Source: Bacteroidales bacterium
GTDB taxonomy: Bacteria > Bacteroidota > Bacteroidia > Bacteroidales > F082
Assembly (NCBI GenBank): GCA_017645275.1
Contig: JAGCPH010000051.1
Location: forward strand, 1-57,831
DNA: 57,831 bases
Direction of reading: 5' to 3'
Below, in pieces: positions 11,206 through 29,253 of this stretch. The position numbers and the translations under genes are program-made. Position 1 is the first letter of the stretch; the number at the start of each line of letters is the position of its first letter. The notes beneath the pieces were generated by a model that worked only from the letters and a program-made list of their open reading frames with translations, ran no database searches and was not told the DNA's origin.

Positions 11206-12198
11206 ATGGCAATATTAGCATTTCAGAGACCTGACAAGGTCATAATGGTAGAATCGACAGACAAACACGGTGTCTTCGAATTTCGCCCGCTCGAGCCTGG
11301 CTACGGCATGACAATCGGTAACGCTTTGAGAAGAGTCCTCCTCTCATCGCTCGAAGGCTACGCTATCACATCAATCCGCATCGAAGGCGTGGAGCACGAG
11401 ATGGCTCCTATCCCTGGTGTGATCGAAGACCTTACCGATATCGTGTTGAAATTCAAACAGGTCCGTTTCAAACAACAAATCCCGGGTGAGACATTCGAAA
11501 AGGTCACCGTCGTCATCGGTGGACAGGAAGAATTCGTCGCCGGCGATATCAACAAGTTCTTGTCAGTATTCCAAGTGCTGAACCCTGAACTCGTGATTTG
11601 CCACATGGATCCTTCGGTGAAACTGACTATCGACCTCACCATCGGAAAGGGAAGAGGTTATGTCAACGCCGATGAGAACAAAGTGCTCAACGCACCTGTC
11701 AACACCATCGCCATCGATTCAATCCATACACCTATAAGAAACGTCAGCTTCAAAGTCGACAACTTCCGCGTCGAGCAGAAGACCGACTATGAGAAGCTCA
11801 TTCTCGACATCGAGACCGACGGCTCAATAGCACCGAAAGACGCTATGACAGAAGCCGCTAAGATACTCATCTATCACCTTATGCTGTTCAGCGATGAGCG
11901 CATCACCCTGATGGACGAGCAGAAGACGGTGTCGGAAGACTTTGACGAAGGCTCGCTGCATATCCGCCAGCTCCTCAAGACCAAGTTGGTCGACATGGAC
12001 CTCTCGGTGCGCGCCCTCAACTGCCTCAAAGCAGCCGAGGTGGAGACTATCGGTGAACTCGTCGCCCTCAACAAGGCAGACCTGCTCAAGTTCCGCAACT
12101 TCGGTAAGAAGTCGCTCACAGAGCTTGAAGAGTTAGTCAGAAGCAAGGGACTCGAATTTGGAATGAATATCAGTAAATACAAATTAGATAAGGAATAA
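11206..12198 (+). CDS. rpoA: DNA-directed RNA polymerase subunit alpha
   Basis: A 330-residue alpha subunit. The N-terminal domain (about 1-230) has the dimerisation motifs [28 protein letters not shown] and [14 protein letters not shown]; the C-terminal domain (about 250-325) has the helix-hairpin-helix region [19 protein letters not shown] and [16 protein letters not shown], which contacts regulators and upstream DNA. Located between rpsD and rplQ as usual. Confidence 0.98.
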
Positions 12199-12203
12199 TA
12201 GAG

Positions 12204-12701
12204 ATGAGACACAATAATAAAATCAATCATTTAGGAAGAAAATCGGCTCACCGCAACTCGATGCTCGCCAACATGGCCGCTTCGTTGATCCTTGAGAAAC
12301 GCATCATCACAACCACAGCTAAGGCTAAGGCTTTGCGTCTCTACGTCGAGCCAATGATCACACGTTCCAAAGACGACTCAACCAATTCACGCCGTATCGT
12401 TTTCGCACAGTTGCAAAACAAATACGCTGTCACAGAGTTGTTCCGCGAAGTTAGCCAGAAGGTCGCTAACCGTCCAGGTGGCTACACACGTATCATCAAG
12501 CTCGGTCTCCGCGCCGGTGACAACGCCGATATGTGCATGATGGAGCTCGTTGACTATAACGATATCTACACCAACGGCAAGAAAGCTGCTAAAGCAACCA
12601 AGACAACACGTCGTGGTGGCAAGAAGAAAGCAGCTGAGGCTCCTAAAGCTGAAGAGGCTCCTGTAGCAGAAGCTCCAGCAGCAGAAGCAAAGGCTGAATA
12701 A
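12204..12701 (+). CDS. rplQ: 50S ribosomal protein L17 with Ala/Lys/Glu-rich tail
   Basis: A 165-residue L17. The core ([17 protein letters not shown] to about residue 120) is standard and ends with [16 protein letters not shown]. It is followed by some 45 extra residues rich in Lys, then in Ala, Glu and Pro, a low-complexity tail seen in Bacteroidota L17. Last gene of the ribosomal block; a strong terminator follows 26 bases later. Confidence 0.97.
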
Positions 12702-12727
12702 GACTTTAGCCATTGGCTACCAATACT

Positions 12728-12762
12728 GTGGAGACGTTTATGGAACGTCTCCACTTTTTTTT
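12728..12762 (+). terminator. Rho-independent terminator of the ribosomal block
   Basis: A perfect 11-base stem, GTGGAGACGTT at 12728-12738 and AACGTCTCCAC at 12744-12754, with a five-base loop and eight T residues behind it. It separates rplQ from eno. Confidence 0.93.
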
Positions 12763-12793
12763 ATAAAATTATCCGCATTTCCAAAATTATTTG

Positions 12794-12801
12794 TAATTTT
12801 G
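12794..12801 (+). promoter_or_regulatory. -7 promoter box before eno
   Basis: TAATTTTG matches the Bacteroidota -7 consensus TAnnTTTG and lies 35 bases before the eno start. No TTTG is seen at the usual -33 distance, so only the -7 half is supported. Confidence 0.5.
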
Positions 12802-12833
12802 TAGCTTGATTAAATAGGTTTTAAAATTTTTGA

Positions 12834-15550
<2,717 letters not shown>

Positions 15551-15551
15551 A

Positions 15552-17837
15552 TTAGAATGGGTATCCGATACCGAAGTTCCACACCAAGTCACGCCACTGC
15601 AACTTGCTGATGCGCCAACGTGAGCCCTCGTCGTATGCCGGGTCACACAGAGGCGCCGCTATATCAAGTCGGATAAGGAAGAATGAGAAGTCGAAACGGA
15701 AGCCGAGACCCGCGTCGACAGCTATCTGCTTGTAAAACTTGTCGAATTTAAACTGTCCTCCAGGGAACGCTTCGTCGTTGCTGAGCGTCCAGATGTTACC
15801 CATATCGCAGAACAATGCACCTTTCAAGACACCGTATAAAGGGTAACGGTATTCGAAATTCGTCTCCAGCTGCAAGTCACCGATATGCTCGATGTCGTAG
15901 CCGTATTCGTTCTTGAACTCACCAGGTCCCAGACTCCTGAAACGCCATCCGCGCATGCCGTTGGTACCGCCTGCATAGAAGCTCCTTTCAAAAGGCAGAC
16001 CGGTAGAGTTGCCATATGCTATGCCTTGTCCGTAAACGAAACGCATCGCCAAGGTGTTTTTGCTGGTGAAATAATGGTAAAACCTAAAATCGAACTGATA
16101 TTTGAAGAACTGGGCATAACGAATACCCAAAATCTCATGATGACCATCGTTTTCAGTCATGATAGACGTGTTGTTGAACAACGACAGCAGGTTTCCCGAC
16201 GTCTCGATATCGAATTTCAAATAGAAGAAGTCGTTATCTTTCTTCTTGATATTCTGGTTGTTGAAGATAAACGAATAGTTCAAACCGAAAATCAAGTGGT
16301 CGGTGTACTGCTCCTTGATACGCTGGTTGGTCTCAAACTCGAGCAAAAAAGCGAACAATTCATCTGGTAACACCTTCACAATGTTGAAGTTAAGAGGTGT
16401 CAGTATGTGTTCTATTGTGGGTGTCGTCTTCCAGTTATAACCAAACGACGCCATTCCGATATATCTGGTATACAACGGTCTGATCTGTACGTTGTAGCCT
16501 GTTGAGAGTATTGTCTTGGGCTGGTATTCTATAACAAATCTGTTCAGCTTGATGGGGGAGAGGAATCGCGGGAACAGAATGCTAGCGTCGATGCCGAGCT
16601 CCTTGGTGTTGAACAGGCCTTCCGAGATGATGTAGTCTTCCACACGTTGTGCCTGGAAACCGCCACGGAGCGTTATCCTCAACACCTCCGAACCCCTGAA
16701 AATATTGTTGTTTCGGTAAGAGATGCTTCCCAACGCGCCGAGGTCGCCACCTGAGTTGTTGCCTTCAAGCTGTATGTTGTAATAGTGCAGCTTGCCTTTC
16801 TGCAAGGTGATGTCGCATCTTAATGGCTTTATCGAGTCGTTGCTGCCAGGGATGGTGTCGAGGTAGATGTTGCTCATGCTGTAAAGTTTCAAACTACCCA
16901 TCGCCCTGTATGTCTGGCTGATTTTTTTCTGACAGAACTCCTCGCCGGGACGCATCTGTATCACCTGGTCGAAAGTCTGCAGATGCACCTTCGGATTCTT
17001 GTTGTAGATGAAGTTAAAAGTATATTCAGGACCTCTTCTGCTCAACGAGAAAGTGTGTTGGACGGTGTCCATCGGCCCAGTATCCGTTATTTTGAAGTCA
17101 GGGTAGATGTAGACATCCTTGAGCGCATATTTGTCGTGTTTCTTGCCATCGATGCGCACCGTCACGTCGGCCTTGTGCTGCATCAGGTTAGTGTCAACCT
17201 CGTAGATGATGTACTCTCTAGTAAACATGAAATAGCCGTTGTCGCGCAGATGCGTCGTGATGAGGTCACGCTGCTTGTCCATGGTGTAGGCGTTGTAGAT
17301 GTCGCCTTCCTTTACCGGCAGTTCGTCTTGTATCTTTTTGATTTCCTTGGCAATAGCGCTGTCGCCAATCTTGTAGTCGATATTACGGATATAATATGGC
17401 TTCGACGGATGCACGACGTAATCTACCAGGGCGCGCCCTTCAACAATCGTTTTTTCAGGTGTCACCTTCGACTTGAAATAGCCGGTGTTGTTGAGATATT
17501 TCTCAATGAGACGCTTCGACTCGGCCATGTTTTTATCGTTGACATATACCGGCTCTTTCGCTACGTTTTTGTTGATCCAACGGTAAAAACCTTTGTCGGT
17601 CTTGTTGAGCGTCTTGTAATACAGCCACACTCGCGGCATCCATCCCAGGAAACTTCTGCTCGGTTTCTGGACGATGTTGCTCGAGATGTCAGATCTTGAG
17701 ATGTTATACTTTTCAGGCTCGAAATCCACGGTGTTGTTAATCAATATTGCCTCGTTTTTCGGAACGTATCCCTTGATGGCACAACCAGCTAGGAACAATG
17801 CCAATAACGAAAACAATATTGGTTTAACAATTCTCAT
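15552..17837 (-). CDS. tamL: TamL-type Omp85 lipoprotein (BamA/TamA family)
   Basis: A 761-residue outer-membrane protein. It starts with a lipoprotein signal peptide (lipobox LAGC, Cys19), continues with POTRA-like repeats to about residue 370 (for example ARALVDYVVHPSKPYYIRNID and LKDVYIYPDFKI) and ends with an Omp85 barrel that includes GGTNGMRGWRFRSLGPGEF and a C-terminal Phe (GIGYPF). A lipid-anchored TamA-like protein of this form is known as TamL in Bacteroidota and is thought to help insert outer-membrane proteins. Its ATG overlaps the folC stop (ATGA). A second possibility is a divergent BamA paralogue. Confidence 0.85.
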   Translation of the reverse strand: MRIVKPILFSLLALFLAGCAIKGYVPKNEAILINNTVDFEPEKYNISRSDISSNIVQKPSRSFLGWMPRVWLYYKTLNKTDKGFYRWINKNVAKEPVYVNDKNMAESKRLIEKYLNNTGYFKSKVTPEKTIVEGRALVDYVVHPSKPYYIRNIDYKIGDSAIAKEIKKIQDELPVKEGDIYNAYTMDKQRDLITTHLRDNGYFMFTREYIIYEVDTNLMQHKADVTVRIDGKKHDKYALKDVYIYPDFKITDTGPMDTVQHTFSLSRRGPEYTFNFIYNKNPKVHLQTFDQVIQMRPGEEFCQKKISQTYRAMGSLKLYSMSNIYLDTIPGSNDSIKPLRCDITLQKGKLHYYNIQLEGNNSGGDLGALGSISYRNNNIFRGSEVLRITLRGGFQAQRVEDYIISEGLFNTKELGIDASILFPRFLSPIKLNRFVIEYQPKTILSTGYNVQIRPLYTRYIGMASFGYNWKTTPTIEHILTPLNFNIVKVLPDELFAFLLEFETNQRIKEQYTDHLIFGLNYSFIFNNQNIKKKDNDFFYLKFDIETSGNLLSLFNNTSIMTENDGHHEILGIRYAQFFKYQFDFRFYHYFTSKNTLAMRFVYGQGIAYGNSTGLPFERSFYAGGTNGMRGWRFRSLGPGEFKNEYGYDIEHIGDLQLETNFEYRYPLYGVLKGALFCDMGNIWTLSNDEAFPGGQFKFDKFYKQIAVDAGLGFRFDFSFFLIRLDIAAPLCDPAYDEGSRWRISKLQWRDLVWNFGIGYPF

Positions 17838-19120
17838 ATAACCTCTGCTACTGTAAAGTTACTGCCTCCGACGAATACCACGTCGTCGAAATGGGCGTTG
17901 TTGAGCGCCGAATGGTACGCCTGCTGCACCGATTCATAGACGTTGCCTCTCAATCCGACCTGTAATGCTTTGTCTGCCAATATGTTAGCATCCAATCCGC
18001 GAGGGATGTCAGCCTTGCAGAAATAATACTCGGCGTATTGCGGCAACAGATTCAGAATCCCGTCGATGTCTTTGTCGTTGACGCAGCCCAGAACGAAGTG
18101 TAACTTCCTGAAAACCATGTCACTAAGCTGCATCGTGATCTCTTTTATTCCGCCTACGTTGTGCCCCGTGTCGGCTATCACCAGCGGCTGACGGCTCAAG
18201 ACCTGCCATCTGCCCATCAGGTTAGTGTTTTTCACCACAAATTCAAGTCCGTTGATGATGTCTTTCTTCTCGATATTGAACTTCTCTTTCAGAATCTCGA
18301 CGGCGCATATCACCGTGGAGAGGTTTTTCTTCTGATAATATCCTAAAAGCGGAAACTCTACTGCTTCGATATAAAGCTCGTTGTTTTTCCAGATGTCAAA
18401 CTTCTGATAATCAAGCGATTCCACATGAACCTTGTCGCAGTCGATGATCTGGTCGGCGAAGTAGATAGGGGCGTTGCATTCCTGCGCTTTCTTGATGAAC
18501 ACGTCTTTTGTCTCAGACTGTGTCTCGCCGATGACCACTGGTGTGTTCGGCTTTATTATGCCTGCTTTCTCGACGGCTATCTCCGCCAAGGTGTTGCCCA
18601 GCATGTGTACATGATCCAATGAAATATTGGTTATCACGCTGAGTTCCGGCATTATCACATTGGTCGAGTCTAATCTGCCTCCGAGACCCACCTCGATGAT
18701 AGCGATGTCTACTTTTTCCTTTGCGAAATAGTCGAACGCCATGCCTGTAGCCATCTCGAAAAACGAGAGCTGCATCTCCTCAAACTTGGCTTTGTTGCCA
18801 TCGATGAAGTCGATAACGCTCTGCTCGTCAATCATTTGACCGTTTACACGGATGCGTTCACGGAAGTCGAGCAGGTGAGGGGAGGTGTAGAGTCCTGTTT
18901 TGTAGCCGCATTCCTGGAATATCGATGCCAGGGTATGCGACACTGTGCCTTTGCCGTTGGTGCCTGCTACGTGCACTGTCTTGAACTTCTTCTCCGGATT
19001 GCCAAGAAAATCAAGCAGTTCCACGATGTTGCCGAGGTCGGGTTTGTAAGCCTTTGCCCCAATCTTCTGGTACATCGGGAACTTGTTGAACATCCAGTTT
19101 GTTGTCTCAGCGTAGTTCAT
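17834..19120 (-). CDS. folC: Folylpolyglutamate / dihydrofolate synthase
   Basis: A 428-residue Mur-ligase-family enzyme that adds glutamate to folates (and possibly to dihydropteroate). The P-loop is HVAGTNGKGTVSHTLA (about 50-65), followed by LYTSPHLLDFRERIRVNGQ, the central GLGGRLDSTNVI and a C-terminal VGGSNFTVAEV. It overlaps the tonB-like gene and tamL by four bases each, so this cytosolic enzyme is embedded in an envelope operon. Confidence 0.93.
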   Translation of the reverse strand: MNYAETTNWMFNKFPMYQKIGAKAYKPDLGNIVELLDFLGNPEKKFKTVHVAGTNGKGTVSHTLASIFQECGYKTGLYTSPHLLDFRERIRVNGQMIDEQSVIDFIDGNKAKFEEMQLSFFEMATGMAFDYFAKEKVDIAIIEVGLGGRLDSTNVIMPELSVITNISLDHVHMLGNTLAEIAVEKAGIIKPNTPVVIGETQSETKDVFIKKAQECNAPIYFADQIIDCDKVHVESLDYQKFDIWKNNELYIEAVEFPLLGYYQKKNLSTVICAVEILKEKFNIEKKDIINGLEFVVKNTNLMGRWQVLSRQPLVIADTGHNVGGIKEITMQLSDMVFRKLHFVLGCVNDKDIDGILNLLPQYAEYYFCKADIPRGLDANILADKALQVGLRGNVYESVQQAYHSALNNAHFDDVVFVGGSNFTVAEVI

Positions 19121-19845
19121 TGTCTTAAGGTATAATAGTATGTTATCGTTCCTTTTTGCAGCTCTGCTGCGTCTTTGTCGGGCGCGAACACCGATGTCTT
19201 CGCTGCGTTTATAGCTTCTTGTCGCATCCGTGTGTTGGTTATCGTGGTACCTTTCCCAATCTTGGCGTTTTGTACACGTCCGTCACGGTCCACCCAGATG
19301 TCGACCACTATGGTGCCTTCTTCTGTCACGCCGTCTTTGCTCGGGTGTGGCAGGCTCTTCGCGCCACGGCCGCCGAGGTCAAACGATGGTCCGCCTCCAG
19401 CACCGCCTTGTCCCTCATAGTTAGGGACGTTCTGGCCTCCGTTAGGGTTGCCTTGGTCGCCCGGATTGCCAGTGATACCTTCCGATGACGGCTGCTCTTC
19501 CGGCTTGTTGGTGGGTTTGAACAAGGCACGTTCGTTCACCTTTGGTTCTTCTTTCTTGGGCTTGGGCTCCTCGAGGGCAGGCGCCTCCTCGGTGTTCTGT
19601 GTCACGGTTTCCTCTTTCACCTGTTGTGGCTGAGGCTTTGGCACGCTCACCACCTCTTTGGGCTTAGGCTGCTGCTGGTTACCCATGCCTTCGTTGTACA
19701 TGCCGAGGTTGACTTCCACGCCGGCTTCGCCTGGCAACGGCCACGGTCCATGCAACGCCATGATGACAAGCAGAATCACCACGAGGGCGTGCACCGCCAC
19801 CGTGACAGCAATAGCTATTGTCTTATTTTTGTTGTCTCTCGTCAT
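19117..19845 (-). CDS. TonB-family energy transducer
   Basis: A 242-residue protein with a short cytosolic N-terminus, one transmembrane helix (about 10-32), a long Pro/Glu/Lys-rich periplasmic region (about 45-160, many PKPQPQ and EEPKPKKEE runs) and a C-terminal TonB domain (EEGTIVVDIWVDRDGRVQNA...GTITYYYTLRQ). It should pass the ExbBD proton-motive force to outer-membrane receptors. The Gly-rich stretch around residues 115-150 is a linker. Overlaps exbD and folC by four bases. Confidence 0.92.
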   Translation of the reverse strand: MTRDNKNKTIAIAVTVAVHALVVILLVIMALHGPWPLPGEAGVEVNLGMYNEGMGNQQQPKPKEVVSVPKPQPQQVKEETVTQNTEEAPALEEPKPKKEEPKVNERALFKPTNKPEEQPSSEGITGNPGDQGNPNGGQNVPNYEGQGGAGGGPSFDLGGRGAKSLPHPSKDGVTEEGTIVVDIWVDRDGRVQNAKIGKGTTITNTRMRQEAINAAKTSVFAPDKDAAELQKGTITYYYTLRQ

Positions 19846-20264
19846 TTCTTTGGTGATGTTGCCAGCAAAACCTTATGGTTCTGATGTGTCTCGTTGTTGA
19901 TGTTGTTCACCGCGTCAATCACGTTGACCACGTACTGCACCGGTACATTCTTGTCGGAACGCACCACTACAGTGCCTTCGCTGCCTTGGTTGGCTTTGTT
20001 GAGCTCCACCAGGATCTCTGGCTGCAGCTGGTCTTCAGCCACTTTGCGCTCTTCCACGAAATAGTCGTTGTTCTCGTTGATATACACAGTGACTGTCTGC
20101 TTCGCCATGGTTCGGCTGCTGCTCTGTGGCAACAGCAGCTTGATGGCGTTAGGCGCTATCAGTGTCGACGTCAGCATGAAGAAGATGAGGAGCAGAAACA
20201 CGAGGTCGGACATCGACGACATGTTAAACTCCACCTTTCTTTGATTTCTGCGTTTGAGTGCCAT
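19842..20264 (-). CDS. exbD: ExbD/TolR-family proton-channel subunit
   Basis: A 140-residue protein with cytosolic basic N-terminus, one transmembrane helix with the conserved aspartate (SMSDLVFLLLIFFMLTST, Asp20) and a periplasmic domain ending in VVRSDKNVPVQYVVNVIDAV, typical of ExbD. It partners ExbB in a proton-driven motor for TonB. Two bases separate it from exbB and it overlaps the tonB-like gene. Confidence 0.94.
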   Translation of the reverse strand: MALKRRNQRKVEFNMSSMSDLVFLLLIFFMLTSTLIAPNAIKLLLPQSSSRTMAKQTVTVYINENNDYFVEERKVAEDQLQPEILVELNKANQGSEGTVVVRSDKNVPVQYVVNVIDAVNNINNETHQNHKVLLATSPKK

Positions 20265-21003: not shown

Positions 21004-21918
21004 TTATAATTCTGTGAATCTTTTGACAATTTTTTCTCTGTAAGTGTTTGATACCGGCACCGATTCCAGTCCTGTCTGGTTGAAGTCGATGTAATAGCCT
21101 TCGTCTTCGGTGCGTATCAGCTTGATATTGTTAGTGTTGACGATATATGTGCGGTGGCATCGCATGAGTGGGGTGCCAGCCAGATTGTCTTCGATGGTCT
21201 GAATCTTGTTTCTTAAGACGAATGAGCTGATACCACCTTTATTATTATAGAATACGTTCACGTAGTTGCCTTCCGCCTTGATATAATAGATGTTTTCGAG
21301 CTTTACGGTGAATTTCAGTGCGCCCGTGTAGTCGTGGAAGTTGACGATGTCCGGTGTGTCGGTGACCATTGGCTCGCTAGTTGCGTTTTTCTGAGTTTTG
21401 GCAGCGTCGTTTTCGTTCGACTGTATCACACCTTTAGCGATTCTCAATACTCGTTGAGCGTCGAGGAGTGCGAAGCTTAAGTCGGTGACGATGAATGGGA
21501 ACCCCAGCGCGATGAAGGTGATAAGAATACTCTTTCCAATGATGAGAGCCTTGGAATAATCGCCTACATAATCTTCTACATGTATGATTCCCAATGAGAT
21601 ATAGGCGTGGAACAAGCCGATAAGCGCTATCTCGCCTAACATCCAGAAAATGTATTTGGGCAACGTGAAACGTATCAACCGTTTCGACATGTAAAACATC
21701 ATCACCCTGCTGAAAATCAAGAAGATAGTGGAGAAGATGATGAAGAACGCCGTATACATGAACTTGTCGGGATCTTCCAATGAGAACCACGATGTTGTGG
21801 TGTTAGACAAAGGAATATATACGGCTAAAAACGCTATCGCGAAGAGCACCGAGATGGTCACTTGCACGATAAGATTGTTTTTCTCTATCAGATAATGTGG
21901 AAGTTTTTTACTTTTCAT
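21004..21918 (-). CDS. Membrane-bound LytTR-family transcription regulator
   Basis: A 304-residue one-component regulator. Residues about 12-165 hold four predicted transmembrane helices (for example VQVTISVLFAIAFLAVYIPL and SILITFIALGFPFIV); the C-terminal 100 residues are a LytTR DNA-binding domain (ENIYYIKAEGNYVNVFY, NKIQTIEDNLAGTPLMRCHRTYIVN, VPVSNTYREKIVKRF). The frame is open to a TTG at 21939, but that codon is part of a TATATTTG promoter box, so ATG 21918 is chosen. It is divergent from the fabH operon, and seven 9-base direct repeats with LytTR-like spacing fill the gap. Likely autoregulated. It is followed by exbB 47 bases on. Confidence 0.9.
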   Translation of the reverse strand: MKSKKLPHYLIEKNNLIVQVTISVLFAIAFLAVYIPLSNTTTSWFSLEDPDKFMYTAFFIIFSTIFLIFSRVMMFYMSKRLIRFTLPKYIFWMLGEIALIGLFHAYISLGIIHVEDYVGDYSKALIIGKSILITFIALGFPFIVTDLSFALLDAQRVLRIAKGVIQSNENDAAKTQKNATSEPMVTDTPDIVNFHDYTGALKFTVKLENIYYIKAEGNYVNVFYNNKGGISSFVLRNKIQTIEDNLAGTPLMRCHRTYIVNTNNIKLIRTEDEGYYIDFNQTGLESVPVSNTYREKIVKRFTEL

Positions 21919-21936
21919 GGCGTAATTTTTACGATG

Positions 21937-21944
21937 CAAATATA
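21937..21944 (-). promoter_or_regulatory. -7 promoter box of the LytTR gene
   Basis: Minus-strand TATATTTG matches TAnnTTTG and lies 18 bases before the ATG. The nearest TTTG is only 15 bases away, so a proper -33 box is missing. The first TTCGTCACA repeat begins 25 bases upstream. Confidence 0.6.
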
Positions 21945-21969
21945 CAAATAATATTAATACAAACCTAAT

Positions 21970-22101
21970 TTCGTCACAAATTTTCCTAATTTCGTCACAG
22001 AAAAAATTTTTTCGTCACAATTTTATAAAATTTCGTCACAAAATGGCTAAATTCGTCACAAAAACCCGAAATTCGTCACAAAACACCCTGATTTCGTCAC
22101 A
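21970..22101 (+). promoter_or_regulatory. Seven phased TTCGTCACA direct repeats, probable LytTR operator
   Basis: Seven perfect copies of TTCGTCACA start at 21970, 21991, 22011, 22032, 22052, 22072 and 22093. The spacing is 21, 20, 21, 20, 20, 21 bases, two turns of B-DNA, while the 11-12 base spacers differ in sequence. LytTR proteins are known to bind 9-base direct repeats separated by about 12 bases, which fits the neighbouring LytTR gene. The array ends 28 bases before the fabH -7 box and starts 25 bases from the LytTR -7 box, so it could serve both promoters. The binding itself is inferred. Confidence 0.85.
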
Positions 22102-22128
22102 AAAATACACCAGCCCGTTTTTTGGGGG

Positions 22129-22136
22129 TACTTTTG
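22129..22136 (+). promoter_or_regulatory. -7 promoter box of the fabH operon
   Basis: TACTTTTG matches TAnnTTTG, 46 bases before the fabH ATG. There is no TTTG at the -33 distance; instead the last TTCGTCACA repeat lies just above that position, the arrangement of an activator-dependent promoter. Confidence 0.6.
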
Positions 22137-22182
22137 CGATGTTTGAAAACGAAAAATTAATTATTAACAAAACTTAGATATA

Positions 22183-23130
22183 ATGAAAATTTCAGGAATT
22201 GGTAGTTCGCTTCCAAAGCAGGTTGTTACAAACCAGATGCTTGCGGAGATTCTTGACACCTCAGACGAATGGATCACAACGCGTACTGGTATCAAGGAGC
22301 GTCGCGTGCTCTCGTCGGAGTATGTGCTCGACCTTGCAGTTGACGCTGCACAGAAGGCCCTCGTAGACGCTAACTTGGAGGCGAAAGACCTCGATTTCGT
22401 CATTGTTGCAAACGTCGTTAATGAATATGTGACACCAGCTCTCAGCTGCATTGTGAAAGAAAAGATTGGCGCCAAATGTCCTTGCATCGACCTCAACGGT
22501 GCCTGCGTAGGCTTCATCTATGCATGCGACATCGCGGAAGCATATTATAAAATAGGTAGAGTGAAGAACGTCCTCGTGGTATGTGCTGAGGCACCTGCCC
22601 ATATGCTCGACTGGCATGACCGCACATGCGCAGTGCTGTTCGGAGCAGGAGCAGGAGCGGCAGTACTCACACCAGGTGACAACATCATCACCACACGCCT
22701 CACCAGCAGCGACGGCTGGGACCGTCTCTATGAGATGCACGACCTGCAGTGGTGCCCGTTCGACAAGAAAGGCAGCACCAACCTCCCACTCGTGATGCAC
22801 GGCCAGGATGTGTTCCGCTTCGCCACATCGACATGTGTCAACGACCTCAACGTGGTGCTTAAAGAAGCTAATCTGACTGCCGACCAGATTGACACATATT
22901 TCATCCATCAGGCTAACTTGAGAATTATAAAATACATTGAACAGATGCTCGGACAGCCGGCAGAGAAGTTCCCGACCAATATCGAGAAATACGGTAACAC
23001 CTCATCGGCCAGCCTCCCGATTTTGCTCGACGAGACAAAACGCGCAGGCAAACTCCATGAAGGTGACATGATAGCTTTCAGCGCTTTCGGCGCAGGCCTC
23101 GTATCCGGAGCTATGATTATGAAATGGTAA
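22183..23130 (+). CDS. fabH: Beta-ketoacyl-ACP synthase III
   Basis: A 315-residue thiolase-fold enzyme that starts fatty acid chains by condensing an acyl-CoA with malonyl-ACP. The catalytic triad is visible: Cys108 (LNGACVGF), His242 (IHQANLR) and Asn272 (YGNTSSASLPI). DEWITTRTGIKERR is the typical N-terminal substrate-site block. It opens an eight-gene operon and is preceded by the LytTR-type repeat array. Relatives such as DarB-like or polyketide starter synthases cannot be excluded without a tree. Confidence 0.92.
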   Translation: MKISGIGSSLPKQVVTNQMLAEILDTSDEWITTRTGIKERRVLSSEYVLDLAVDAAQKALVDANLEAKDLDFVIVANVVNEYVTPALSCIVKEKIGAKCPCIDLNGACVGFIYACDIAEAYYKIGRVKNVLVVCAEAPAHMLDWHDRTCAVLFGAGAGAAVLTPGDNIITTRLTSSDGWDRLYEMHDLQWCPFDKKGSTNLPLVMHGQDVFRFATSTCVNDLNVVLKEANLTADQIDTYFIHQANLRIIKYIEQMLGQPAEKFPTNIEKYGNTSSASLPILLDETKRAGKLHEGDMIAFSAFGAGLVSGAMIMKW

Positions 23131-23148
23131 AATTGAAAACATACAGAA

Positions 23149-24387
23149 ATGAATAAAAGAAGAGTAGTTATTACAGGAATGGGCGTTGTCTCACCAGTGG
23201 GCAACAATATTGAGACATTCCATAAAAATATTATGAATGGTGTCTGTGGCATCGCTCCAATCACCAAATTCGACACCAGCGACCTCCCGTCAAAGGTGGC
23301 AGGCGAAGTGAAAGACTTCAACCCTGCGGAATACAACCTCGAGACGCCTTTCGTGCGTCGTAACGACTTGTTCTCGGTCTACGCCATGGCAGCAGCAGTG
23401 CAGGCCATGCAAGGTAACGAGGAAGGCTGGGATCCTGACCGTCTGGGCGTGTACATCGGCTCAGGCATCGGCGGTTTCGACACCATGATGCGCGAGATGC
23501 ATAAACTCGAGTTCGAAGGACCACGCTGGGTGTCACCATTGATGATCCCTACCATGATTGCTAACATGGCATCAGGCAACGTAGCAATCAAGTTTAACGC
23601 TCACGGAGTATGTATCCCAGTGGTGACAGCATGTGCTACAAGTACTAACGCCATCGGCGAGGCTTACAGAGCTATCAAGGACGGCTATGCTGACGGTATC
23701 ATCGCAGGCGGTACAGAAGCACCTATTAATAGATTGTCGATAGCAGGCTTCGCCAACGCTAAGGCTCTCACCAAGTCGGAAGATCCTAACGCAGCATCAC
23801 TGCCATTTGACGCACGCCGCGCAGGTTTCGTCATCGCTGAAGGCGCCGGCATAGTGCTGATGGAAGAATACGAACATGCCAAGAAACGCGGAGCAACCAT
23901 CTACGCTGAGGTATGCGGCTACGGCAACACCTGCGACGGTCACCATGTGACAGCACCGCATCCGGAAGGCACATACGCTGCCAAGTCAATCAAGATGGCA
24001 TTGGACGAGGCTGGCTACCAGACAGGCAAAGACGTGCTTTACGTCAACGCACACGGAACAGGCACATCGCTCAACGACTCATCAGAGACCAAAGCCTTGA
24101 AGCTCGCATTGGGTGAGACAGAGGCACGCAGAGCTATGATAAGCTCAACAAAATCAATGATGGGACACCTCCTCGGAGCAGCAGGAGCGGTGGAGATTAT
24201 TGCCTCGGTGCTCGCTTTGCGCGACGGCATGGTGCCACCAACCATCAACCTCAACGAGCCTGACCCAGTCTGCGACCTCAACTACACACCAAACAAGGCA
24301 GTGAAAGCTGACTTGACCATCGCAGTGTCAGAATCACTCGGCTTTGGCGGTCACAACGGAGCGGTAGCATTAAGACCTATTAAGTAA
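23149..24387 (+). CDS. fabF: Beta-ketoacyl-ACP synthase II
   Basis: A 412-residue elongating condensing enzyme. Cys162 (VVTACATSTNAIGEA), His302 (NAHGTGTSLND) and His340 (STKSMMGHLLGAAGAVE) form the Cys-His-His triad, with Lys335 in place. Length and motifs fit FabF. It lies 18 bases behind fabH. Because this operon also carries an ACP, the enzyme may serve a dedicated lipid path rather than bulk fatty acid synthesis. Confidence 0.94.
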   Translation: MNKRRVVITGMGVVSPVGNNIETFHKNIMNGVCGIAPITKFDTSDLPSKVAGEVKDFNPAEYNLETPFVRRNDLFSVYAMAAAVQAMQGNEEGWDPDRLGVYIGSGIGGFDTMMREMHKLEFEGPRWVSPLMIPTMIANMASGNVAIKFNAHGVCIPVVTACATSTNAIGEAYRAIKDGYADGIIAGGTEAPINRLSIAGFANAKALTKSEDPNAASLPFDARRAGFVIAEGAGIVLMEEYEHAKKRGATIYAEVCGYGNTCDGHHVTAPHPEGTYAAKSIKMALDEAGYQTGKDVLYVNAHGTGTSLNDSSETKALKLALGETEARRAMISSTKSMMGHLLGAAGAVEIIASVLALRDGMVPPTINLNEPDPVCDLNYTPNKAVKADLTIAVSESLGFGGHNGAVALRPIK

Positions 24388-24408: not shown

Positions 24409-24834
24409 ATGACAAGAGAAGAATTGAAAAACTACTTACCTCATCGCGAGCCTATGTTGCTCATTGACGAGATTGACATCGACGACCAGCATGTCGGTCA
24501 TGCCAAATATCATGTCAAGGGCGATGAGTTCTTCCTCCAGGGACACTTCCCGGGCAACCCAGTGGTGCCGGGCGTCATCCTCTGCGAGATTATGGCCCAG
24601 AGCTGCGCTCTCCTTATGAAGGATGACCTTCCAGGTAATCTTACATTCTACACCGGCATCAACAACGTGCGTTTCAAGAACCAGGTTCTTCCGGGTGACA
24701 CCGTCGAAGTGGAGTCAGTCTTGACAGCACACCGCGCCAACATCTATTTCTGCGACGCTAAATTGAGTGTCAGAGGAAAACAGTGTGTCAGCGGCAGCTT
24801 GTCGTTTGCCCTCGTTCCCAAACCAGAAAAATAA
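24409..24834 (+). CDS. fabZ: 3-hydroxyacyl-ACP dehydratase, FabZ type
   Basis: A 141-residue hotdog-fold protein with the dehydratase site GHFPGNPVVPGVILCEIMAQ: His46 and Glu60. It removes water from 3-hydroxyacyl-ACP to give the trans-2-enoyl thioester. Third gene of the operon, 21 bases after fabF. Confidence 0.94.
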   Translation: MTREELKNYLPHREPMLLIDEIDIDDQHVGHAKYHVKGDEFFLQGHFPGNPVVPGVILCEIMAQSCALLMKDDLPGNLTFYTGINNVRFKNQVLPGDTVEVESVLTAHRANIYFCDAKLSVRGKQCVSGSLSFALVPKPEK

Positions 24835-24848
24835 TTGTATAATATAAA

Positions 24849-25670
24849 ATGAAGAAAGAATTTCAAATTGTTGTGTTGGCAAAACAGGTGCCTGATACCA
24901 AGAACGTTGGTAAGGACGCCATGAATGCCGACGGCACTATCAACCGCGCTGCGCTTCCTGCCATCTTCAACCCTGATGACATGAAAGCTCTCGAGATGGC
25001 TCTTGAGTGCCGTGATAGAATAAAAGCAGAGAACAACATCGACGTCAAAGTGACCGTCATCACCATGGGACCTCCACGCGCCAACGAGATCATCCGCGAG
25101 GCATTGTATCGCGGCGCAGATAACGGTTTTGTGGTCAGCGACAAACGTTTCGCAGCATCAGACACATTGGCAACATCATATGCTTTGTCGATGGCTATCA
25201 AGAAGTTAGGTCGTTACGACGTGGTCTTTACAGGCCGTCAGGCTATCGATGGTGACACCGCACAGGTGGGACCTCAGACAGCTGAGAAACTCGAAGTGCC
25301 ACAGATCACATACGCCGACGAGCTCATCGCAGTGACCCCGGAGACCATCCGTCTCAAGAGAGTGCTCCAGCACGGCATCGAGGTGGTCGAGACTAAGCTC
25401 CCGGCCCTAGTGACAGTACACGGCAACGCCAAAGACTGCCGCTCACGCCACGCTCATCTCGTGATCAAGAAGAAAAACACAGAAATCCCAATGTGGACAG
25501 CCGATGACATCAACCCTGACTTCGACCGTTTGGGCGGAAAAGGCTCTCCTACAAAGGTGAAAAACATCGAGAATGTCGTTCTCACAAAGAAAGAAAGTAT
25601 CACAATCAACAGTGATGACGAGGGTATCAGAGGATTGATCGAAGACCTCACAGCATCACATATTTTCTAA
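24849..25670 (+). CDS. etfB: Electron transfer flavoprotein subunit beta
   Basis: A 273-residue EtfB. The N-terminal VVLAKQVPDTKNV and FNPDDMKALEMAL blocks, and the nucleotide-binding stretch FTGRQAIDGDTAQVGPQTAE, are typical. It forms a heterodimer with the EtfA encoded two genes on and should pass electrons to or from the acyl-CoA dehydrogenase of the same operon. Whether it binds a second FAD and bifurcates cannot be read by eye. It follows fabZ by 14 bases. Confidence 0.93.
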   Translation: MKKEFQIVVLAKQVPDTKNVGKDAMNADGTINRAALPAIFNPDDMKALEMALECRDRIKAENNIDVKVTVITMGPPRANEIIREALYRGADNGFVVSDKRFAASDTLATSYALSMAIKKLGRYDVVFTGRQAIDGDTAQVGPQTAEKLEVPQITYADELIAVTPETIRLKRVLQHGIEVVETKLPALVTVHGNAKDCRSRHAHLVIKKKNTEIPMWTADDINPDFDRLGGKGSPTKVKNIENVVLTKKESITINSDDEGIRGLIEDLTASHIF

Positions 25671-25717
25671 GATATAAAGATTAAAATTTTAAGAATAAAA
25701 TTAAAAAGAATATAGCT

Positions 25718-25954
25718 ATGACAACAAAAGAAAGAATCACTGAAATCATCGTTAACAAACTGAATTGCGATCCAGCACAGGTTACAGAAGACGCCGGCTT
25801 CGTCACCACATTGGGTGCCGACTCACTCGACATCGTTGAGTTGATTATGGACATCGAGCGCGAGTTCGAGATCACCATTCCGGATAACATGACAGAAAAG
25901 ATCGTCACAGTGGGCGACGCAATCAAAGTTGTTGAAGAAATCAAGGCAAAATAA
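25718..25954 (+). CDS. acpP: Acyl carrier protein
   Basis: A 78-residue acidic four-helix protein with the phosphopantetheine site LGADSLDIVELIMDIE (Ser36). It carries the growing acyl chain. Its position is unusual: it lies between etfB and etfA, and its stop overlaps the etfA start by one base (TAATG). This suggests that the ETF and dehydrogenase act on an ACP-bound chain, which is an inference. Confidence 0.95.
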   Translation: MTTKERITEIIVNKLNCDPAQVTEDAGFVTTLGADSLDIVELIMDIEREFEITIPDNMTEKIVTVGDAIKVVEEIKAK

Positions 25955-26949
25955 TGAATAACATTATTGTATATTGTGAAGTAAAAGACGACGGCAAGAT
26001 CGCCGATGTGAGCTTGGAGCTCTGCTCGAAGGCTCGTCATCTGGCCGACCGACTCAACGTCAACGTTGACGCCGCTGTCATAGGCAACAACCTCAAAGGT
26101 CTTGAGAATGAGTTGTTTACACACGGTGTGAACACTGTGTTCTGCCTCGAGGACTCACGTCTGTCGTTCTACCAGACGTTGCCACATTTCAGTGTTATGA
26201 CCAAGCTCATCGAACGCGAGAAGCCGTATTCAGTGCTCTTCGGAGCTACTCCAGTTGGCCGTGACCTCGGTCCGAGAGTGGCGTCATATCTCCGTTGCGG
26301 CCTCACCGCCGACTGCACAGCCCTCGACATTGACGAGAACGGCAACCTGATGCAGATCCGTCCGGCTTTCGGCGGCAACATCATCGCCACCATCATCTGC
26401 CCGGACGTGCGCCCGCAGATGGCCACAGTGCGTGAAGGCGTCATGAAACAGGAAGTGTTTGAGAAACAGAAGAATACAGCTGTTGTGAAACTCAACGCAT
26501 CAGAGTTTTTGAATGAAGCCGACTTCGTGGTGAAGATTATCGAGCGTAAGCTTGAAGAGAAGAAAATCGATATCAAAGGCGCTCCAATCATCGTGTCAGG
26601 TGGTTACGGCATGGGCTGCAAAGAGAACTTCAAGCTCTTGCATGAACTCGCAGACCTCCTCGGTGGAGAAGTCGGTGCAACACGTGCCGCTGTCGACGCC
26701 GGTTTCGCAGAACCAGAACGCCAGGTCGGTCAGACAGGTGTCACAGTGCGTCCGAAAGTGTATATCGCTTGCGGTATCTCAGGCGCAGTGCAGCACCGCT
26801 CGGGCATGGAACAGTCAGCGTTGATCATATCCATCAACACCGACCCGCACGCTCCAATCAACTCTATCGCTGACTACGTCATCACTGGTGACGCAGCCGA
26901 TGTAGTGTCGAAGATGATAAAATATTGTAAATCAAATAGTAAGAAATAA
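25954..26949 (+). CDS. etfA: Electron transfer flavoprotein subunit alpha
   Basis: A 331-residue EtfA with the C-terminal FAD domain: KENFKLLHELADLLGGEVGA, VGQTGVTVRPKVYIACGISGAVQH and NTDPHAPINSIADY. In the flavin-contacting motif that reads GGRG in well-studied ETFs the sequence here is GGYG (Tyr218), so a normally conserved Arg is replaced. It overlaps acpP and the dehydrogenase by one base on each side. Confidence 0.94.
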   Translation: MNNIIVYCEVKDDGKIADVSLELCSKARHLADRLNVNVDAAVIGNNLKGLENELFTHGVNTVFCLEDSRLSFYQTLPHFSVMTKLIEREKPYSVLFGATPVGRDLGPRVASYLRCGLTADCTALDIDENGNLMQIRPAFGGNIIATIICPDVRPQMATVREGVMKQEVFEKQKNTAVVKLNASEFLNEADFVVKIIERKLEEKKIDIKGAPIIVSGGYGMGCKENFKLLHELADLLGGEVGATRAAVDAGFAEPERQVGQTGVTVRPKVYIACGISGAVQHRSGMEQSALIISINTDPHAPINSIADYVITGDAADVVSKMIKYCKSNSKK

Positions 26950-28529
26950 TGAACTTTTATCAAGATAATAAAAGCCTCGCTTTCTATCTGAACCATCCTA
27001 AGATGGCTGAGATCGTCCGCATGAAGGAAAACGACTTCGTGGACGCTGAGAACGACGAGCTGGCACCAAAGAGCGTGGAAGACGCTATCGACAACTACGA
27101 CAAGGTGTTGGACATCGTTGGTGAGCTCTGCGGTGACGTGTTGGACGTGAACGCCGAGGCAGTCGATATTGAAGGCCCGAAAATTGTTGACAACGCTATC
27201 GTTTACGCTAAGGGAACACAGCAGAATCACGAGGCTATGCGTGACGCCGGTCTTTATGGTATGGCACTCCCACGCAAATACAACGGACTTAACTTCTCAT
27301 ATGTGCCTTACGTGATGGCAGCCGAGATGGTGTCACGCGCTGACGCAGGCTTCGCCAACATCTGGGGCTTGCAGGACTGCGCCGAGACAATCCTCAAATT
27401 CGCTGACGACGCTATCAAAGACGAGTACTTGCCACGTATCTACAAAGGCGACACATGCTCTATGGACCTCACAGAGCCTGACGCAGGTTCAGACCTTCAG
27501 TCAGTACAGCTGAAAGCTACATTCGATGAGAAGGCTAACACCTGGAGACTCAACGGCGTGAAACGTTTCATCACCAATGGTGATGCAGACATCAAGCTGG
27601 TGCTCGCACGCTCTGAAGAGGGTAGCACCGACGGTCGTGGCCTTTCACTGTTCGTCTACGACAGAAAAGAGAAAGCCGTAACAGTACGTCGTATCGAGAA
27701 CAAGATGGGTATCCACGGCTCACCGACAGCGGAGTTGGTGTTCAACAACGCTCCTGCTAAACTCGTTGGCGACCGTAAGATGGGTCTTATAAAATACGTC
27801 ATGTCGCTGATGAACGGCGCACGTTTAGGCGTTGGTGCCCAGTCAGTGGGACTCGCCGAGGCAGCAGTGCGCGACGCAGAGGAATATGCCGACCAGCGTG
27901 AACAGTTTGGCAAGAAAATCAAAGAGTTCGTGGCAGTGCAGGACATACTTGACCTGATGCGCGCCAAGACCGACGCAGCTCGCTCATTGCTTTATGAGAC
28001 AGCACGTTACGTCGAGACGAACAAGAAGATTGCCGACATGCTTACACCAGTGTTGAAGATGTTTGCCAGCGAATGGGCTAACCAGATCGCTTACGACGAC
28101 ATCCAGATCCACGGCGGTTCAGGCTTCATGAAGGAATACAAATGCGAGCGCCTCTATCGTGACGCACGTATCTTGACCATCTACGAAGGTACCTCACAGC
28201 TCCAGGTCGTGGCAGCAGCACGTTTCTTAGGAAACGGCGCATATCTCAAGTATATCGCTGATCTCGATAACTTTGAATATTCTGAAGAATTACTGCCATT
28301 ACGCGACAAACTTCGTGCCATGACAGAAAAATACAAAGAGATTTTCGAGCTTTCAGGCAATAAAGAGACCCACCACAGACGTTTAGTAGAAGCGGTTGGT
28401 TACATCATCATGGGTTATCTCATGCTTCAGGACGCCACACGTTGCGCTGATTTCAGAAAATCATGCGAAGACATTATCAAATTAGGTAAAGGAGAAATTG
28501 CAAAAACTTATGAATATGTTAAAGAATAG
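26949..28529 (+). CDS. Acyl-CoA dehydrogenase family flavoprotein
   Basis: A 526-residue ACAD, larger than the 380-residue butyryl/short-chain type because of about 60 extra N-terminal and 90 extra C-terminal residues. FAD/substrate motifs are LTEPDAGSDLQSVQLKA and RFITNGDADI; the catalytic base fits Glu413 in IYEGTSQLQ, and QIHGGSGFMKEYKCERLYRDARI is conserved. The family makes or reduces an alpha,beta double bond with ETF as partner. In this fab operon with an ACP and no visible enoyl reductase it may act as an ETF-linked enoyl-thioester reductase or as a desaturating enzyme; the direction cannot be told from sequence. Confidence 0.9.
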   Translation: MNFYQDNKSLAFYLNHPKMAEIVRMKENDFVDAENDELAPKSVEDAIDNYDKVLDIVGELCGDVLDVNAEAVDIEGPKIVDNAIVYAKGTQQNHEAMRDAGLYGMALPRKYNGLNFSYVPYVMAAEMVSRADAGFANIWGLQDCAETILKFADDAIKDEYLPRIYKGDTCSMDLTEPDAGSDLQSVQLKATFDEKANTWRLNGVKRFITNGDADIKLVLARSEEGSTDGRGLSLFVYDRKEKAVTVRRIENKMGIHGSPTAELVFNNAPAKLVGDRKMGLIKYVMSLMNGARLGVGAQSVGLAEAAVRDAEEYADQREQFGKKIKEFVAVQDILDLMRAKTDAARSLLYETARYVETNKKIADMLTPVLKMFASEWANQIAYDDIQIHGGSGFMKEYKCERLYRDARILTIYEGTSQLQVVAAARFLGNGAYLKYIADLDNFEYSEELLPLRDKLRAMTEKYKEIFELSGNKETHHRRLVEAVGYIIMGYLMLQDATRCADFRKSCEDIIKLGKGEIAKTYEYVKE

Positions 28530-29253
28530 AACAGCTATAATCACCGGTGCCGCTAGAGGTATCGGCAAGGCCATCGCAAAGCGTTACGCTATGGAAGGCT
28601 GCAATATCGCTATCACAGATATCAACGAAGACAATATTAACGCCACTGTCGCTGAACTCAGCGAGCTTGGCACACAGGTTAAAGGTTACGTGTCGAACGC
28701 AGCAGATTTCGCTGACGTTGAGAAGACTGTCAACCAGATCATGGCAGATTTCGGTCGCATCGATATCCTCGTCAACAACGCAGGCATCACCAAAGACGGC
28801 TTGATGCTTCGTATGACTGAAGCACAATGGGATGCAGTTCTTACAGTGAACCTGAAGTCAGCATTCAACTACATCCATGCTGTGTTACCAATCATGGCAC
28901 GTCAGAAGGGTGGTAGCATCATCAATATGGCTAGCGTCGTCGGCGTGAGCGGCAACGCAGGTCAGGCTAACTACTCAGCATCAAAGGCCGGTTTGATCGG
29001 TCTCGCCAAGTCAATCGCCAAGGAGATGGGTAGCCGTGGCATCCGCGCCAACTGTATCGCTCCAGGTTATATCGAGAGCGACATGACAAAGGCTCTTCCT
29101 GAAGAAGTGAGAAAAGAATGGGCAAGCAAGATTCCGTTGAGAAGAGGTGGTACACCGGAAGACGTCGCCAACGTGGCGTTGTTCCTCGCATCAGACCTCT
29201 CAAGCTATGTCACCGGACAGGTGATCAACTGCTGCGGCGGTATGCAGTGCTAA
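28510..29253 (+). CDS. fabG: 3-oxoacyl-ACP reductase, FabG type
   Basis: A 247-residue short-chain dehydrogenase. Rossmann motif ITGAARGIGKAI near the N-terminus, NNAG, the catalytic Ser in NMASVVG, YSASK (Tyr-x-x-x-Lys), then APGYIESDMTKALPEEV and a C-terminal VTGQVINCCGG. It reduces 3-oxoacyl-ACP with NAD(P)H. ATG 28510 was chosen by length against FabG relatives; ATG 28516 is also possible. The start lies inside the last codons of the dehydrogenase gene, a 20-base overlap. It ends the operon before a strong terminator. Confidence 0.93.
   Translation: MNMLKNRTAIITGAARGIGKAIAKRYAMEGCNIAITDINEDNINATVAELSELGTQVKGYVSNAADFADVEKTVNQIMADFGRIDILVNNAGITKDGLMLRMTEAQWDAVLTVNLKSAFNYIHAVLPIMARQKGGSIINMASVVGVSGNAGQANYSASKAGLIGLAKSIAKEMGSRGIRANCIAPGYIESDMTKALPEEVRKEWASKIPLRRGGTPEDVANVALFLASDLSSYVTGQVINCCGGMQC

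Follow-up and report, generated by a model that had tools for sequence, protein, structure and literature searches.

A 264-base gap in the genome of a Bacteroidales bacterium separates the gene for a membrane-bound LytTR regulator from a divergent fatty-acid operon that begins with fabH, and it carries seven identical copies of the 9-base sequence TTCGTCACA at steps of two helical turns. We consider it highly probable, from sequence comparison, that this array is a multi-site operator of the adjacent LytTR regulator, which probably activates the fab operon. The array, its conservation, its single orientation, its helical phase, its fixed distance from the fabH promoter, and an association of such sites with LytTR and acyl-chain genes across families were all computed directly.

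The array and its neighbors

The window, by which we mean the whole stretch of DNA analyzed (57,831 bases), contains the following features.

21004 to 21918, minus strand: lytTR, membrane LytTR regulator of 304 amino acids, four long helices followed by a LytTR domain (PF04397, 60.3 bits; AlphaFold model)
21937 to 21944, minus strand: predicted lytTR -7 box TATATTTG, read from the sequence
21970 to 21978, plus strand: repeat 1, TTCGTCACA, exact match
21991 to 21999, plus strand: repeat 2, TTCGTCACA, exact match
22011 to 22019, plus strand: repeat 3, TTCGTCACA, exact match
22032 to 22040, plus strand: repeat 4, TTCGTCACA, exact match
22052 to 22060, plus strand: repeat 5, TTCGTCACA, exact match
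22072 to 22080, plus strand: repeat 6, TTCGTCACA, exact match
22093 to 22101, plus strand: repeat 7, TTCGTCACA, exact match
22129 to 22136, plus strand: predicted fabH operon -7 box TACTTTTG, Bacteroidota TAnnTTTG type, no -33 box at the usual distance
22183 to 23130, plus strand: fabH, beta-ketoacyl-ACP synthase III (TIGR00747 and Pfam)
23149 to 24387, plus strand: fabF (TIGR03150, 543 bits)
24409 to 24834, plus strand: fabZ-like dehydratase (domain profile matches)
24849 to 25670, plus strand: etfB, electron transfer flavoprotein beta (domain profile matches)
25954 to 26949, plus strand: etfA, electron transfer flavoprotein alpha (domain profile matches)
26949 to 28529, plus strand: acyl-CoA dehydrogenase family (domain profile match)
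28498 to 29253, plus strand: fabG (TIGR01830)

From start codon to start codon, the gap between the leftward lytTR (21004 to 21918) and the rightward fatty-acid operon (from 22183) spans 21919 to 22182, and the array proper occupies 21970 to 22101. Exact matching returned seven copies on the plus strand with zero mismatches, at start-to-start steps of 21, 20, 21, 20, 20, and 21 bases, just as the initial annotation had described them, and its remark that the spacers vary while the repeats stay is borne out both between copies and between species. No further exact copy of TTCGTCACA lies in the window outside the array. Copies of 9 bp with spacers of 11 or 12 bp and a promoter downstream have the form of published LytTR sites, which are 9-bp direct repeats 10 to 13 bp apart (PMC11347149). 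When the 330 bases upstream of lytTR were searched for chains of one 9-mer (one mismatch allowed, at least three G/C, steps of 19 to 22), the longest chain had seven members, compared with at most two in 40 dinucleotide shuffles. With the spacing and G/C conditions off, some 9-mer occurred at least seven times in 7 of 2,000 shuffles of the A/T-rich gap; what rules out chance is therefore the regularity of the spacing.

The left gene encodes, as had been proposed, a membrane-bound LytTR protein. Its product matches PF04397 with 60.3 bits against a cut-off of 22.6 (residues 210 to 307 of the scanned frame), and an AlphaFold model (mean pLDDT of 82.4, pTM of 0.52, alignment of 51 relatives) has helices at residues 13 to 37, 50 to 80, 86 to 112, and 123 to 173, a stretch of low confidence at 174 to 185, and strands from residue 191. 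The strand-rich C-terminal part of the model is where Pfam places the LytTR domain, and the protein is predicted to consist of four membrane helices with no outside domain, a linker, and LytTR. Pfam found LytTR alone in this protein, with no match to an MHYT domain, and the single LytTR domain recovered from the PDB by a sequence-profile search was 3d6w (2.1e-11). The membrane part lies, in the model, inside the LytTR protein itself and not in a separate transmembrane inhibitor encoded beside the LytTR gene, as in LytTR regulatory systems (LRS). The two genes downstream of lytTR on the same strand belong to the MotA/ExbB and ExbD families (Pfam), and the genome carries at least one further LytTR paralog (25% identity). 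When LytTR residues were compared by eye, the change between K and E within the YI[K/E]A strand tracked the CACA and CCCC forms of the motif; we dropped this change as a candidate motif-specificity residue, as ancestry explains it equally well.

Both genes that flank the array have good predicted -7 boxes near its ends. The TAnnTTTG box type is given for Bacteroides in Table 3 of PMC6193735. The end of repeat 7 is separated from the fabH -7 box by 27 bases, and the other end of the array from the lytTR -7 box (21944 to 21937, minus strand) by 25 bases, in agreement with the 25 to 28 bases noted at the outset. Since it sits upstream of both boxes, the array is unlikely to be part of either transcript. 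The reported absence of a -33 box from the fabH promoter likewise stands: the gap sequence contains neither TTTG nor TTG 19 to 21 bases upstream of the -7 box. In most genomes of clade A, which includes that of the window, the interval from the last repeat to the fabH -7 box (22102 to 22128) contains, near the usual place of a -33 box, a CAyCAnGTGG-like block.

Among ten clade A genomes tested, the window's fabH is the sole FabH-type match in seven, and the operon may for this reason supply the principal enzyme of initiation. A second fabF above the family cut-off is found elsewhere in nine of the ten, the exception being the incomplete G000. The window has etfB, etfA, and an acyl-CoA dehydrogenase gene between fabZ and fabG (24849 to 28529), which may supply an unusual enoyl-reduction step, and tblastn found none like them in 18 clade C operons (L206 to L223). 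Several ketosynthase-like genes are clustered at G000:C2 (about 11990 to 20114). Counting its counterparts, eight of the ten tested clade A genomes have such a cluster, possibly of the aryl-polyene type, which is a guess.

Conservation, drift, and helical phase

As the initial annotation had proposed, we compared the motif in the genome and its relatives with their LytTR genes, and motif pairs and LytTR orthologs coincide. The pair TGTGACGAA-N10-13-TGTGACGAA is found in 21 of the 99 genus genomes, and its reversed control in none of them. A LytTR ortholog of at least 69% identity is encoded in 19 genus genomes, the window's included, and as a truncated copy in G090; the pair is present in 20/20 of these and in 1/79 of the others (G052). 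The G090 pairs lie outside any lytTR-fabH gap, since lytTR of this genome runs off its contig.

Upstream of fabH in clade A (n = 19), seven sites are present in 18 genomes, and G058 has six under the core filter and seven in a separate count. The steps are 19 (4 cases), 20 (52), 21 (51), or 22 bp (5), with a mean of 20.51, and the sites lie almost exclusively in one orientation. Exact copies account for 112 of the 132 sites in a letter table that was prefiltered on the core. When repeats 3 to 7 were re-placed by geometry alone, 79 of 95 were exact, positions 5 to 9 (TCACA) were 0.99 to 1.00 constant, and most flanking positions varied. The distance from the start of repeat 7 to the TAnnTTTG box of fabH is 36 nucleotides in all 19 clade A genomes, including the window's, and the offset on the lytTR side is 33 to 34 in 17 genomes; in the remaining 2 it is 23, shorter by roughly one turn. 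Sixteen named Bacteroidales MAG loci have five to seven copies each with up to one mismatch; these are probably largely the same genomes as the genus set and hence probably not independent.

Across the genus, lytTR (at least 40% identity, full length) and fabH are both present in 84 of the 99 genomes, both missing from 11, and found singly in 4, counts that are not independent since relatives share ancestry. Genomes counted as having neither include G001, G069, G070, G071, and G075 (27 to 29% paralog only) and G090 (truncated at the contig end), and the two fabH matches of G080 were counted once. The genes lie at most 12 kb apart on one contig in 79 of the 84 genomes and on different contigs in the other 5.

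In clade B, lytTR and fabH are divergent, at 42 to 47% identity for LytTR and 62 to 65% for FabH, and repeats like TTTCACCCCA and TTGCCACA occupy the gap between them. In clade C, where FabH identity is about 49%, lytTR sits at the far, convergent end of the operon, and the fabH promoter bears TTCGCCACA- and TTCGTCCCA-like repeats. The motif has drifted to TTYRYCMCW in the deeper clades and still lies upstream of fabH in helical phase. A pair at 19 to 22 bp is present in 12 of 13 fabH upstream regions of clade B (fetched from 13 of 14 genomes) and in all 18 fetched for clade C, which come from the 46 genus genomes where lytTR lies 3.6 to 10 kb from fabH on one contig. In LRS, promoter-proximal repeats serve positive autoregulation. 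The array faces the lytTR promoter too in clades A and B, and none of the 18 fetched clade C lytTR genes has one, which indicates that the array belongs first to fabH. Because the clade C array stays with fabH and lytTR is without one, fabH would be the constant target and autoregulation optional. The original suggestion of an activator of both promoters accordingly has partial support: the 36-nucleotide distance is fixed on the fabH side, and in clade C lytTR has no array.

The 342 site-to-site distances from clades B, C, and others have a period of 10.5 bp with R of 0.65, compared with at most 0.20 in 300 random placements, and 154 site-to-(-7) distances have a period of 10.45 bp with R of 0.82 (the random control was run for site-to-site distances only). 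Fitted clade by clade, the best period is 10.2 for A, 10.3 for B, and 10.6 for C. These values are descriptive and not P values, since the sequences are related, and the analysis left out the clade A region L156, a truncated locus. Distances of 10 to 11 and 52 to 53 bp also occur in clades B and C, as expected if helix face alone matters.

Related sites across the order and away from fabH

Divergent lytTR-fabH pairs with TTNRYCACA-like repeats also occur in other Bacteroidales families (G031, G462, and G205). In G219, G245, G394, and G396, a window-type fabH (50 to 54% identity) lies away from lytTR and has a motif pair, each site being at most one mismatch from TTYRYCMCW. Window-type fabH in seven other-family genomes has a 19- to 22-bp pair in 7/7 cases, and the other fabH type (at most 37% identity) has one in 0/10 other LytTR-bearing genomes. 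By eye, this second type seems to follow plsX- or rpmF-like frames.

Distant LytTR genes picked by protein similarity alone have an upstream pair in 13 of 19 cases (shuffles, 1.1%), and the distance within these pairs is exactly 20 in 23 of 26. The remaining six have no upstream pair, including three of the four that face acyl-CoA-synthetase-like genes. Divergent neighbors encode DUF6051 proteins (Pfam for L188, L199, L202, and L204) or AMP-binding, acyl-CoA-synthetase-like proteins (Pfam for L187, L193, and L205). Twelve of the 13 pair-positive loci are of the DUF6051 type, those beyond the Pfam-checked ones having been assigned by tblastn or by eye; among the AMP-binding-type loci L187, L193, L196 (by eye), and L205, only L205 has a pair.

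Searches blind to genes found TTCGYCACA pairs in 11 of 393 genomes of the order, five in the genus and six sites outside it. Four of the outside sites, all from one genus (G179, G282, G370, and G436), lie between LytTR and a GDSL-lipase-like gene (Pfam in 2/4), one follows a soluble LytTR response regulator gene (G308), and the sixth is in G234. A degenerate pair at a 20-bp step gave 37 matches in 22 genomes with a LytTR ortholog (reversed control, 5) and 5 in 22 genomes without an ortholog at the threshold (control, 4), where the latter genomes were hand-picked and nonrandom and overlapping pairs of one array were counted separately. Three of those five matches adjoin a more distant LytTR gene. 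The 42 matches comprise 21 at lytTR, 2 at unlinked fabH, 5 beside AMP-binding genes, and 1 before an acyltransferase and AMP-binding pair; the 13 at neither lytTR, fabH, nor acyl-chain genes divide into 4 at iron alcohol dehydrogenase genes, 3 that fall within frames, and 6 others. Of these six, five are at mraZ, Fic, radical SAM, polysaccharide export, and Schlafen-like genes, and one is at a frame whose sole match is a subthreshold fn3 one. The pairs at iron-containing alcohol dehydrogenase genes (L269, L286, L288, and L296) come from four genomes of one genus in another family. Single-site promoters with fabH geometry numbered 24 in the genus, 13 of them clade A fabH; the other 11 exceed the 6 of a reversed-pattern control only modestly, and we do not claim a wider regulon of such promoters.

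Clade A genomes contain a dispersed element, intergenic and some 75 bp long, in which a single TGTGACGAA pair with a 20-bp step is flanked by two TTCGACC...AGATACT-like direct repeats (L113, L114, L117, L119, L120, L124 to L127, L129 [two], L130, L131, L133, and L134). In several cases the element directly adjoins a gene at its 3' end. Possibly it is an operator decoy that is mobile or has been amplified. The window's own genome has just one other pair (C31:7597-7625; L001/L135), which is flanked by divergent genes for a YitT-family protein and an outer-membrane beta-barrel protein and whose spacer is identical in G090 (L122). Rfam gave no family match at seven loci tried (six dispersed-element loci and L001). 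In G014, a purL-like gene is preceded by five exact copies and one mismatched copy (L112, G014:C21). Arrays of five copies in G090 (L121) and four in G096 (L123) lie between the facing 3' ends of two convergent genes, one transglutaminase-like and one acyltransferase-like, a place where a promoter would not be expected. These convergent-gene arrays and the dispersed element have no obvious promoter role and count against the guess of a lipid signal made below. The initial annotation had held that repeats at many places unrelated to LytTR genes would speak against its reading. That is the case in part only: the genome itself has a single other pair, and the places concerned are the dispersed element in several near relatives, the two convergent-gene arrays, and the 13 of 42 matches elsewhere.

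Proposed mechanism, alternatives, and known systems

The reading of the array as a LytTR operator, put forward from the window alone, gains support from the co-occurrence in the genus, the drift of the motif with the locus, the pairs at 13 of 19 distant LytTR genes, and the 21 of 42 matches at lytTR. We favor an activating operator because LytTR activator sites have been published with this form: direct repeats that lack dyad symmetry, about two turns apart, upstream of a promoter with no -33 box (PMC6193735 and PMC11347149). Each 9-mer would dock one LytTR domain, and seven such domains, spaced by two turns or about 20.5 bp, would sit along a single face of the DNA. The regulator would be a one-component protein that binds the array from the membrane and, most likely, activates the fab operon by taking the place of the absent -33 box, making contact with RNA polymerase from a constant position on the helix. 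It would probably also control its own gene in clades A and B and at the DUF6051 and GDSL loci. The input is likely the state of the membrane or lipid pool, a natural guess because the targets (the fab operon, acyl-CoA synthetase, acyltransferase, and hydrolases) concern acyl chains, and output may be graded by array length. A bolder proposal, which we offer tentatively and judge possible rather than probable, is that an order-wide family of membrane LytTR proteins in Bacteroidales is a dedicated lipid-homeostasis switch that senses the bilayer directly and tethers the promoter to the membrane. Its output would be set by the number of filled sites (two to seven, helically phased), with array length tuned for each target: short at DUF6051 and acyl-CoA synthetase genes and long at the fab operon.

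The LytTR protein could also bind the array and repress fabH and lytTR, lifting the repression when lipid is needed in the membrane, and for this there is a precedent in CoxC, a membrane LytTR protein that represses via three direct repeats (PMC11347149). The operator of CoxC, however, overlaps the -35 box; here 27 bp separate the end of the last repeat from the -7 box, and the lack of a -33 box combined with a constant distance in 19/19 genomes is the layout expected of an activator, so we regard repression as unlikely. It is rather improbable, in our estimate, that a genuine operator serves another binder, such as a LytTR paralog or a soluble LytTR response regulator, with the membrane lytTR merely another target. 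Such paralogs exist in these genomes, the TTCGTCACA pair of G308 lies beside a soluble response regulator and not a membrane one, and the clade C lytTR is not beside an array; yet lytTR and fabH are copresent or coabsent in 95 of 99 genomes and remain within 12 kb in 79 of 84 despite rearrangement, and distant relatives of the window's LytTR carry the motif at steps of about 20 bp (13/19).

Two further explanations dispense with sequence-specific binding or with regulation altogether. The A/T-rich flanks recur with the same period as the repeats, as they would in a structural element of phased A/T tracts that bends DNA, but it is the TCACA positions of the geometry-placed repeats that are constant and most flanks that vary, the orientation in clade A is nearly single, and from clade to clade it is the motif as such that drifts; we give bent DNA very little credence. 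The pair in the dispersed intergenic element and the two arrays between convergent genes are what a selfish or mutational tandem repeat with no regulatory function could leave behind. This origin is scarcely credible for the fabH array, as spacers differ while the 9-mers, steps, and promoter distance are kept, and the motif persists across families.

The operator and activator reading preferred here places the system beside several known ones. FapR, FabT, FabR, and FadR control FAS-II genes and are soluble helix-turn-helix proteins with palindromic sites; control of FAS-II is common to them and to the system in the window, which has instead a membrane LytTR protein and a direct-repeat array. 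LRS (HdrRM and BrsRM) and the LRS-like operons of Bacteroides share with it a LytTR domain and direct repeats just upstream of a promoter, those of LRS being mostly 12 and sometimes 11 or 13 bp apart, and the Bacteroides operons share multi-TM LytTR proteins and the TATCTTTG promoter box as well (PMC6193735). In the parts of PMC6193735 considered here, LRS have two repeats, a separate membrane protein in the operon, and another motif (11-bp repeats in Bacteroides), whereas the system in the window has up to seven repeats, a fused membrane part, and a fatty-acid operon as its target. CoxC (MHYT-LytTR; CO oxidation genes) is likewise a one-component membrane LytTR protein with direct repeats two turns apart (18 to 21 bp), but it is described as a repressor with seven TM segments bearing MHYT motifs and three repeats over the -35 box (PMC11347149); the window's protein has four long helices and no MHYT match, with seven upstream repeats and lipid genes. 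HigX of Caulobacter has four TM helices with no periplasmic domain, a linker, and LytTR, a layout that the predicted model of the window's protein shares, and its targets are envelope related. It differs in that its ChIP motif is reported to be an imperfect inverted repeat instead of a long array of direct repeats and, in the part of PMC13384398 considered, its gene lies beside higBA and not beside lipid synthesis genes. The co-occurrence of DUF6051, LytTR, and fatty-acid-CoA ligase genes has been noted for neighborhoods of DUF6051 alpha/beta hydrolases; the portion of PMC11878206 considered gives it no regulatory reading, describes no operator, and proposes a role in infection.

Membrane LytTR proteins and sets of two or three direct repeats are therefore known already; the seven-fold phased array, the fatty-acid target, and the order-wide lipid association look new. 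Among the titles and abstract openings that searches of the open-licence literature returned, none links a LytTR protein to fatty-acid synthesis control or fabH, and a search of the open-licence literature for regulators of fatty-acid synthesis in Bacteroides or Bacteroidetes gave no paper. If the proposed mechanism is true, it would provide a testable membrane-to-promoter lipid switch for a major order of gut and rumen bacteria and would suggest a regulator for DUF6051 hydrolases. The arrays would then also form a natural series of two to seven sites in which cooperative or graded control of promoters by membrane-fixed proteins could be studied.
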